From positions 1 to 36,708 of the IMG/VR virus record IMGVR_UViG_3300007735_000683: a stretch of DNA of 36,708 nucleotides. One strand, written 5' to 3'. The stretch is from a virus. Below the pieces are notes generated by a model, which worked only from the letters and a program-made list of their open reading frames with translations, did no database searches and had not been told where the DNA came from. Both the position numbers and the translations under genes were made by a program. Shown in pieces: positions 14,338 through 16,004 of this stretch. The first letter of the stretch is position 1. Each line of letters begins with the position of its first letter.

Positions 14338-14544
14338 ATGGACAACAAATTGACAGCAACAGAGCGCCAAGAACTTGCCGACCTAGTCGGCTTAAATGAG
14401 CAGTGGCTTTATCAGTGCTTGACTGGTAGGCGGGACATGAGTCCAGCAGAGGCCATCCGAGTGGAGGCTGCGTCTGGTGGCAGCGTCACCCGCCAGATGC
14501 TGTGCCAGGGAACCTGGGCCAAGATTTGGCCTGAGTTGGCATGA
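14338..14544 (+). CDS. YdaS/Cro-like transcriptional regulator
   Basis: A 68-residue HTH protein. Residues about 10-34 form the helix-turn-helix (Leu-Ala-Asp-Leu-Val-Gly-Leu-Asn-Glu-Gln-Trp-Leu-Tyr-Gln-Cys-Leu-Thr-Gly-Arg-Arg), followed by Ile-Arg-Val-Glu-Ala-Ala-Ser-Gly-Gly-Ser-Val-Thr-Arg and a Trp-x-x-Ile-Trp-Pro-Glu-Leu end, a pattern I know from YdaS-antitoxin/Cro-like proteins of Burkholderiales phages. It is the first gene of the rightward operon, seems leaderless, and overlaps the methyltransferase start by ATGA. It probably binds the operators at 14214 and 14314. Confidence 0.8.
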   Translation: MDNKLTATERQELADLVGLNEQWLYQCLTGRRDMSPAEAIRVEAASGGSVTRQMLCQGTWAKIWPELA

Positions 14545-16004
14545 AATATTTGTCAGTCTGCTCTGGGATTGAGGCCGCAACAGTTGCGTGGCATCCACTT
14601 GGCTGGACGCCAGTTGGGTTTGGGGAGATTGAGAAGTTCCCATGCCAAGTGCTGGCGCACCACTACCCAGACATCATGAACTTTGGCGACATGACTCGCT
14701 TTAAGGAGTGGAATCTTGGATCAGATGTCAATGTTCTCGTTGGAGGAACTCCCTGCCAGTCATTTAGTGTCGCCGGACTCCGAAAAGGATTGGATGACCC
14801 GCGTGGCAACCTCATGCTTACCTACCTTGCCATTGCTGCAAAGCATCGGCCCCAGTGGTTGGTTTGGGAGAACGTCCCCGGCGTCTTATCCTCTAACGGA
14901 GGACTCGACTTTGCCTCCCTCCTTCGAGGGATGGGCCAACTCGGGTATGGGTTCGCATACAGGATTCTTGACGCTCAATACTTCGGAGTGGCCCAGCGAC
15001 GCCGTCGTGTGTTTGTTGTCGGATACCTTGGAAACTGGCGACCTGCCGCAGCGGTACTTTTTGAGCGCCACAGCTTGTCAGGGCATCCTGCGCCGAGCAG
15101 AAAAGCGCGGCAAGGTGTTGCCGCCAATGCTAGAGAAGGCGTTAATAGCAGTATCCCAGAAGTAATGTGTACATTGAGGGCAAGCGGTGCAGGATTTTCT
15201 AGTGTAGGTAATGCAGTTACCGAACATGAAACTTATATACCTGTAATGCACTCGGAACTATGCCCATCGCTCAAGGCGCGTGACGCAAAAGGCCCATCAA
15301 GTGACGGTGACGGTGACGGTGCAATACTTGTGCCAATGATGCAACAAATTGCCCTGCAAGATATTCGGGTAATTGAAAAAATGCAAAACGGGAAGGGCTG
15401 GAATGATGATGGCACGGCATACACGCTTGATACTTATGCAACTGAGGGCGTGGCGCAGCCGATCAACATTTACGGCGGCAACAAGCGTACAGATCGACCA
15501 GAAGGCGGTTTTTATATACGCATGGATGAAGACATTAGCAAGACATTGGACGCTGCTTCTGGCTTAAATCCAACCTGTTCCCAAGGTGGCACGGCGGTAA
15601 TGCAACCAATCCCCATTGACAGCATGAACCACATTGGCAGGGGCGACAAGCACAGCATGGGTGACTTTGTGGCAGGCGCACCCAGTTACACATTGACGAA
15701 GCACCACAGTCATGCGGTATGCCTAATGGATCAAGGCGGTAGCATGATGAGCATAGAAAATGACATGACAGGCACATTAAGGCGAGAAACGCATGGACAT
15801 GAGCCTGTTGTCATGCAACAAATGGTAGTACGGCGGCTCTCTGTAGTTGAGTGCGAACGCCTCCAAGGTTTTCCTGATAATTACACCAACATCAAAGAAA
15901 AATGCCCAGATGGTCCACGCTACAAGGCGCTTGGAAACAGCATGGCTGTGCCTGTGATGCATTGGATTGGTAAGCGCATTTCTCAAGTTGAAGGAATCGC
16001 ATGA
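14541..16004 (+). CDS. DNA C5-cytosine methyltransferase
   Basis: A 487-residue Dcm-type enzyme that transfers methyl from S-adenosylmethionine to cytosine. Motif I is Ser-Val-Cys-Ser-Gly-Ile-Glu (5-11); motif IV Pro71-Cys72-Gln73 holds the catalytic cysteine; motif VI Glu110-Asn-Val; motif VIII Gln152-Arg-Arg-Arg-Arg; motif IX Arg-Arg-Leu-Ser-Val-x-Glu-Cys-Glu-Arg-Leu-Gln-Gly-Phe-Pro and motif X Gly-Asn-Ser-Met-Ala-Val-Pro close the fold. Residues about 180-430 are the variable target-recognition insert. No cognate endonuclease is seen, so this is an orphan methylase, probably for escape from host restriction. A second gene is overprinted within it at 14716-15165. Confidence 0.95.
   Translation: MKYLSVCSGIEAATVAWHPLGWTPVGFGEIEKFPCQVLAHHYPDIMNFGDMTRFKEWNLGSDVNVLVGGTPCQSFSVAGLRKGLDDPRGNLMLTYLAIAAKHRPQWLVWENVPGVLSSNGGLDFASLLRGMGQLGYGFAYRILDAQYFGVAQRRRRVFVVGYLGNWRPAAAVLFERHSLSGHPAPSRKARQGVAANAREGVNSSIPEVMCTLRASGAGFSSVGNAVTEHETYIPVMHSELCPSLKARDAKGPSSDGDGDGAILVPMMQQIALQDIRVIEKMQNGKGWNDDGTAYTLDTYATEGVAQPINIYGGNKRTDRPEGGFYIRMDEDISKTLDAASGLNPTCSQGGTAVMQPIPIDSMNHIGRGDKHSMGDFVAGAPSYTLTKHHSHAVCLMDQGGSMMSIENDMTGTLRRETHGHEPVVMQQMVVRRLSVVECERLQGFPDNYTNIKEKCPDGPRYKALGNSMAVPVMHWIGKRISQVEGIA
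14716..15165 (+). CDS. Overprinted gene inside the methyltransferase (+1 frame)
   Basis: A 149-residue frame lies entirely inside the methyltransferase gene, shifted by one base. A TTG start at 14716 follows a perfect AAGGAG (14703-14708) by seven bases; ATG 14725 is an alternative. The protein ends with Leu-Ser-Ala-Thr-Ala-Cys-Gln-Gly-Ile-Leu-Arg-Arg-Ala-Glu-Lys-Arg-Gly-Lys-Val-Leu, which I recognise from a phage hypothetical family found with Dcm genes. The same bases encode a conserved-looking Ala-Val-Leu-Phe-Glu-Arg segment of the methylase. The function is unknown. Both frames appear to be under constraint. Confidence 0.7.
   Translation: MDQMSMFSLEELPASHLVSPDSEKDWMTRVATSCLPTLPLLQSIGPSGWFGRTSPASYPLTEDSTLPPSFEGWANSGMGSHTGFLTLNTSEWPSDAVVCLLSDTLETGDLPQRYFLSATACQGILRRAEKRGKVLPPMLEKALIAVSQK

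Follow-up and report, generated by a model that had tools for sequence, protein, structure and literature searches.

In Streptococcus thermophilus phages of the 5093 group, the products of C5 cytosine methyltransferase (C5-MTase) genes show an "apparent total overlap," and the same total overlap has been cited for phage MM1 and Tn5252 (McDonnell and colleagues, PMC5601072). Both products were taken to be methyltransferases in these streptococcal reports, and only the overlap was remarked upon (PMC5601072). M.EcoHK31I is likewise composed of two polypeptides from one C5-MTase gene region (PMC3404938), and in ShiLan a hidden out-of-frame ORF that gene callers overlooked lies in a phage methylase gene (PMC11855218). 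The virus described here has, like the streptococcal phages and Tn5252, an ORF nested in a different frame of its C5-MTase gene.

The nested frame and its coordinates

The window (the whole stretch of DNA that was analyzed) is an IMG/VR virus record 36.7 kb long. It encodes an SU10-like portal and capsid alongside a replication/recombination block. The features discussed below are as follows:

14541..16004, plus strand: Dcm-type C5 cytosine DNA methyltransferase, 487 aa, the enclosing frame (PF00145, E=1e-54; TIGR00675 dcm)
14703..14708, plus strand: Shine-Dalgarno (SD) sequence AAGGAG of the nested gene (homologue conservation, onset of low synonymous variation)
14716..15165, plus strand: nested overprinted gene (very likely genuine), +1 frame of Dcm, 149 aa, TTG start, TAA stop
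14722..14736, plus strand: QMSMF, a pentapeptide resembling beta-sliding-clamp-binding motifs, hidden-protein residues 3-7
14737..14997, plus strand: N-terminal and middle part of the hidden protein, predicted to be disordered, over Dcm motifs IV to VIII (AlphaFold2)
14998..15162, plus strand: predicted C-terminal helical domain of the hidden protein, residues 95-149 (AlphaFold2 pLDDT, alignments A1-A3)
15069..15794, plus strand: Dcm residues 177-418, a predicted disordered linker (AlphaFold2, pLDDT<50)
15831..15941, plus strand: Dcm motif IX (RRLSVVECERLQGFPD) and motif X (GNSMAVPV) (sequence; invariant columns in alignment A4)

The nested ORF lies wholly within the Dcm ORF, its stop codon occupies 15163-15165, and the spacer between AAGGAG and TTG is exactly 7 nt (14709-14715). 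Dcm is a PF00145 domain protein with motifs I, IV, VI, VIII, IX, and X all present, and over the nested ORF its frame carries PCQ (motif IV), ENV (motif VI), QRRRRVF (motif VIII), and AAAVLFER. An initial annotation, made from sequence alone, had reported a 149-residue nested frame with AAGGAG seven bases from its TTG, which held exactly, and had placed motif VI, motif VIII, and an AVLFER segment in the Dcm frame over the same bases, which held as well. Just 5′ of dcm, a small ORF (14338-14544) has a weak YdaS-like match that falls below the Pfam gathering score.

Open frame and synonymous constraint

Eighty IMG/VR homologues were fetched with the N-terminal 188 residues of Dcm; these are close relatives (at least 79% identical) and, given that query, were not selected for the second frame. 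The nested frame is open in all 80, with the upstream stop at the same position in every one, so that the outcome named in the initial annotation as refuting the gene, stops in the second frame of close homologues with an intact methylase, was not observed. None of the 59 de-duplicated homologues has a stop in the nested frame, where 6.8 per sequence would be expected if synonymous Dcm codons were drawn anew from the usage of the genes themselves (mean probability of no stop, 7e-5 per sequence). The +2 frame over the same codons contains 6.2 stops per sequence.

The check for reduced synonymous change in the methylase frame that the initial annotation had proposed came out in favor of the gene, with a strong reduction that coincides exactly with the second frame. 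In the window clade, the pairwise difference at four-fold sites is 0.58 in Dcm codons 1-58, upstream of the SD, takes values of 0.24, 0.21, 0.29, 0.10, and 0.10 in successive blocks over the nested ORF, and is back to 0.66 just past its stop. On a finer scale, synonymous variation drops sharply at Dcm codons 55-60, the location of the SD. Median values for four-fold columns are 0.066 inside the nested ORF and 0.61 outside it (Mann-Whitney p=7e-28, relatedness ignored). The SD region, TTTAAGGAGTGG, is retained in most of 60 de-duplicated homologues, and the frame has an initiation signal of its own, AAGGAG-N7-TTG in the window and a conserved SD with ATG or TTG in the homologues. We consider it very likely that 14716-15165 is a genuine overprinted gene translated from its own ribosome-binding site, a conclusion that as yet has no support from protein detection or ribosome profiling.

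Selection on the hidden protein

In the part of Dcm that overlaps the hidden C-terminal domain (codons 165-200), Dcm codon positions 1, 2, and 3 have diversities of 0.316, 0.170, and 0.133, while upstream of the nested ORF the values are 0.154, 0.111, and 0.488. The most variable position over this domain is the third base of the hidden frame, and the four-fold difference there is near 0. Per-site changes in the domain amount to 0.374 for those silent in the hidden frame and nonsilent in Dcm, 0.137 for those silent in Dcm and nonsilent in the hidden frame, and 0.131 for those nonsynonymous in both; upstream, the Dcm-silent class reaches 0.566 and the other two are at approximately 0.075. Because hidden-silent changes outnumber Dcm-silent ones over the C-terminal domain, the hidden product is under selection as a protein. 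Sequence analysis thus shows amino-acid-level purifying selection on the hidden protein, which over the C-terminal domain is stronger than that on Dcm, and the same analysis shows that this selection holds in four sets of phage dcm genes. The constraint is uneven: the hidden frame dominates in the C-terminal ~40 codons, and both frames act on the N-terminal ~105. The initial claim of two constrained proteins in one stretch held, with this unevenness as an amendment.

Distribution and linkage to dcm

A tblastn search with the hidden product gave matches in 165 INPHARED records. Carriers include proteobacterial phages (of Sinorhizobium, Vibrio, Providencia, Enterobacter, Roseobacter, and Caulobacter, and the P1-like RCS47) as well as phages of Actinobacteria (mycobacteriophage Phoebus), Verrucomicrobia (Akkermansia phage Chantilly), Oscillospirales, and Streptococcus, and all of these phage relatives occupy the same +1 frame of a Dcm. 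Prophage and genome contigs extend the range to Acidobacteria and one Chloroflexi MAG. Among genomes of one class, 2 of 274 matched, including the centre genome, and the nested element is mainly phage-borne. Streptococcal hidden proteins are homologous to the window type (hhalign probability 99%, E=8e-19).

Searches that could not favor the hidden frame used as queries the Dcm N-termini lying 5′ of the hidden C-terminal domain. They recovered that domain in 78/78 proteobacterial-type loci and in 73 of 74 scorable Firmicutes-type loci, the missing one being a truncated Dcm. Conversely, 236 of 237 loci fetched by the hidden C-terminal domain alone have it in the +1 frame of a recognizable Dcm; no free-standing homologue was found in this set, the sole exception (L290) being a rearranged or decayed Dcm, and there is therefore no stand-alone member to anchor function. 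The synonymous-constraint signature recurs in 119 proteobacterial and P1-like sequences (0.55-0.72 outside, falling to 0.03-0.31 over the domain) and in 45 Firmicutes-type sequences, and in a weaker form in 40 streptococcal-type sequences (0.45-0.6 outside, 0.11-0.44 inside).

The phage hypothetical family invoked in the initial annotation does exist: phrog_16143, a profile of 139 positions, matches hidden-protein residues 47-122 (E=4e-6), and the 165 INPHARED records contain further matches to the hidden product. This family is labeled DNA methyltransferase, a label that is silent on the overlapping frame, and the match implies that some hidden frames have already been called as genes. The description "commonly found with" Dcm needed amending, since the family is nested inside Dcm, in its +1 frame, in essentially every locus examined; the expectation that gene callers would miss the second product also held, as most annotations omit the hidden frame.

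In Caulobacter phage CcrBL9 (L650) the open +1 frame of Dcm terminates in a divergent CSLSRALLTDPIPEKFYL... form of the hidden domain, a case that widens the family to a jumbo phage. The P1-type dmt of Escherichia phage RCS47 (L004, 877-4164) has a long intein-like insertion within motif IV, with GGTPC and CQAF separated by CFTAGHMVLCKNG...VVHN. At L136 and L151 the Dcm N-terminal frame stops soon past the hidden domain, and the hidden frame extends through the TRD and motifs IX and X of Dcm. The result is an AquI-like two-polypeptide split between the N-terminal part and the hidden domain plus C-terminal half that could be either natural or an assembly indel. Two frame switches at L239 (133-1524) bring the hidden C-terminal domain into the reading frame between motifs VI and IX of Dcm, with motif VIII in another frame, which may reflect a decayed gene or sequence errors. 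In Mycobacterium phage Thibault (L656, 1377-3178) an HNH endonuclease ORF interrupts Dcm, which is broken into frames, and the hidden C-terminal domain persists as a separately annotated ORF of 81 aa (gp104). Paenibacillus phage Shelly (L652, 1685-2389) has an annotated "g55 internal gene" of 234 aa that is +1-nested in a different Dcm type. It was considered as a family member on the strength of this nesting and its QLTLF N-terminus, but the profile comparison failed (E=0.18) and it was therefore left outside the family. This case suggests that +1 nested genes in phage dcm either have several origins or have diverged past recognition.

Predicted structures

An AlphaFold2 model of the hidden protein was built from 78 sequences (mean pLDDT 60). 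Residues 1 to about 90 are predicted to be disordered (pLDDT mostly <55), followed by helices predicted at 95-107, 118-131, and 137-148, with pLDDT of 84-95 from residue 110 on. The consensus of this C-terminal domain, LSqvLEtg.vPqrYFLSakACxGILRRAEkRGKxLPxxLxxAL, is conserved in alignments A1-A3. In the AlphaFold2 model of Dcm the catalytic core is mostly well predicted and residues 177-418 have pLDDT<50. Hidden helices 2 and 3 are encoded over the start of this disordered stretch of Dcm, and the disordered part of the hidden protein is encoded over the Dcm catalytic core; the layout predicted by the models is thus complementary, with the folded part of each protein over the disordered part of the other. 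The predicted fold of the hidden C-terminal domain had no significant PDB match (best E=2.5), and the hidden protein had no match in Pfam, NCBIfam, or PADLOC and no sequence relative in the PDB. Its best match in BFVD is the 81-aa Thibault protein, itself a family member.

An N-terminal clamp-like motif

The bacterial beta-clamp-binding consensus is QL(S/D)LF, a motif usually described at a C-terminus (PMC9690074). Hidden proteins carry similar peptides near their N-termini: QMSMF in the window, QLDLF in Phoebus, QLSLF in Lactococcus phage D7893, and QLTMF in many prophages. The motif is short, its exact consensus occurs in some members only, and the QMSMF of the window is a degenerate version of it. 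Using the regular expression Q[LMI][STDN][LMIFV][FLW], which was composed after the sequences had been inspected, the motif was found in 97% of the window clade, against 0.3% expected under synonymous randomization. Frequencies were 54%, 49%, and 40% in three proteobacterial-type sets and 83% in the streptococcal type, and the expectation across sets was 0.3-2.8% with synonymous Dcm codons randomized. No member of the Firmicutes-type set has the motif (0/78), so that this relaxed form is strongly enriched in three of the four sets, and roughly half of the P1-like members, RCS47 among them, lack it as well. In favor of the clamp reading, a Pfam scan of 20 window ORFs gave no match to a polymerase or clamp family.

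The motif lies mostly 1-9 residues from a start codon. Its position relative to the Dcm catalytic Cys varies, either upstream by 19 or 10-11 codons or downstream by 29-31 codons, and the Dcm peptides encoded over it are unrelated (SDVDVLV, ANAIDHVR, ELAANNGLR, TVSDDTIRG). Its recurrence at different Dcm registers indicates selection on the peptide as part of the hidden protein. However, the randomization null breaks all hidden-frame constraint, and the excess therefore demonstrates selection on the peptide rather than clamp binding. We lean, by a narrow margin, toward the inference that the hidden protein binds the clamp in the motif-bearing clades; binding to DnaN is untested.

Proposed function and alternative explanations

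Our main reading combines the overprinted gene with a docking, tether, and partner-binding model, to which we assign a probability of about 0.55; the function is inferred, without binding or translation data. The N-terminal peptide, Q[LM][STDN][LMF][FLW], would dock on the host DnaN beta-sliding clamp, the ~80 residues after it would serve as a flexible tether, and the C-terminal helical domain would bind a partner, most simply co-translated Dcm or hemimethylated DNA. The hidden protein may in this way recruit cytosine methylation to newly replicated phage DNA, as a separate-subunit analogue of Dnmt1-PCNA coupling, which is the precedent for linking a methylase to a clamp (PMC9690074). That coupling of the clamp to Dcm is the purpose of the protein is only inferred, contact with Dcm has not been shown, and we judge it clearly less likely than not. 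The bolder joint claim, that an ancient overprinted dcm gene of phages of Proteobacteria, Firmicutes, Actinobacteria, and Verrucomicrobia is a sliding-clamp adaptor that couples cytosine methylation to replication as in Dnmt1-PCNA, is offered as a tentative one that may well prove wrong.

Two alternatives would remove the need for a separately translated protein. The constraint could reflect a DNA or RNA element, or codon bias in dcm, with the open frame as a by-product; it is indeed visible at the nucleotide level and partly overlaps the conserved Dcm motifs VI and VIII. However, it starts at the SD codons and stops near the hidden stop codon, the free position in the C-terminal domain is exactly the third base of the hidden frame, there are zero hidden-frame stops compared with thousands in the unconstrained +2 frame, and the signature recurs in two deeply diverged sets in which synonymous sites elsewhere are near saturation. 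Frame-neutral nucleic-acid constraint is rejected by the codon-position and site-class analysis, and the explanation as a whole is all but excluded. Programmed frameshifting from Dcm, yielding the Dcm N-terminus fused to the hidden C-terminus, would suit a hidden frame that is same-strand and +1 and that runs on into the Dcm C-terminal half in a few metagenomic loci (L136, L151). Against it, an SD with an ATG or TTG start is conserved at fixed spacing in the window clade and the MM1 type, constraint begins at the SD, and in other clades the start shifts along Dcm, yet the N-terminal peptide stays; we regard frameshifting as very unlikely.

Other alternatives accept the protein and assign it a different role. 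It could be an obligatory second methyltransferase subunit, acting in target recognition or catalysis with no part for the clamp, given that M.EcoHK31I and M.AquI are two-polypeptide C5-MTases (PMC3404938), that the nested ORF of Streptococcus phage MM1 1998 is labeled "C5 methyltransferase beta subunit," and that the hidden protein strictly co-occurs with Dcm. This linkage is weak evidence, however, because nesting by itself forces co-occurrence; moreover, Dcm itself keeps motifs I-X, the hidden protein lacks motif IX, and the N-terminal clamp-like motif is left unexplained, all of which make the subunit role unlikely. Also unlikely is a host-takeover or regulatory factor acting on DnaN or DNA that inhibits or redirects host replication independently of methylation, with the dcm overlap merely reflecting its place of origin. 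The clamp-like motif fits such a factor, SocB is a bacterial replication inhibitor that binds the clamp (PMC9690074), and methylation need not take part. On the other hand, the protein was never unlinked from dcm in the 237 loci fetched by its C-terminal domain, though an inhibitor would gain from mobility, and its occurrence in prophages makes a strongly toxic protein improbable, unless lysogens do not express it.

Significance

In dsDNA phages, few long same-strand overlaps have been documented in which both proteins are under strong selection. The window-type overlap covers hosts of several phyla and lies in phage genes usually annotated as a single methyltransferase, among them the P1-type dmt present in hundreds of E. 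coli plasmid records. If the hidden frame is translated, a second product has been overlooked in many phage methyltransferase genes, mutants of these genes may have been altered in two genes at once, and their synonymous recoding would break a second gene. The clamp-like motif provides a directly testable hypothesis for how phage methylation might keep up with replication, and the predicted complementary layout of folded and disordered parts is a good natural case for how overlaps persist.

Comparison with known systems

The small polypeptide of M.EcoHK31I carries motif IX (PMC3404938), whereas in the window motif IX is in Dcm and none is found in the hidden protein; because Dcm keeps this motif, the M.EcoHK31I model is unmet on its defining feature. 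The ShiLan ORF is a homing insertion of sporadic distribution that encodes an HNH nuclease and is unrelated to the window family (PMC11855218). In contrast, the window ORF lies over the conserved catalytic core (motifs IV-VIII), is vertically conserved, and lacks an HNH motif; a ShiLan-type HNH insertion was rejected on the basis of this overlap and the absence of a Pfam match for the hidden protein. The hidden protein has an N-terminal peptide of the form Q[LM][STDN][LMF]F that resembles the motif of beta-clamp-binding proteins, and one hidden-protein clade lacks it.

In the streptococcal systems the hidden form is without the GILRRAEKRGK helices, and the relevant passage contains no selection test, clamp-like motif, fold, or distribution past streptococci (PMC5601072). 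The open-access literature searched yielded no report that treats the overlap as a broadly conserved family, analyzes selection on it, or notes the clamp-like motif (subscription papers were outside the search). The overprinted gene is very likely real and widespread, and was previously known only from a narrow corner of its range, the streptococcal phages.
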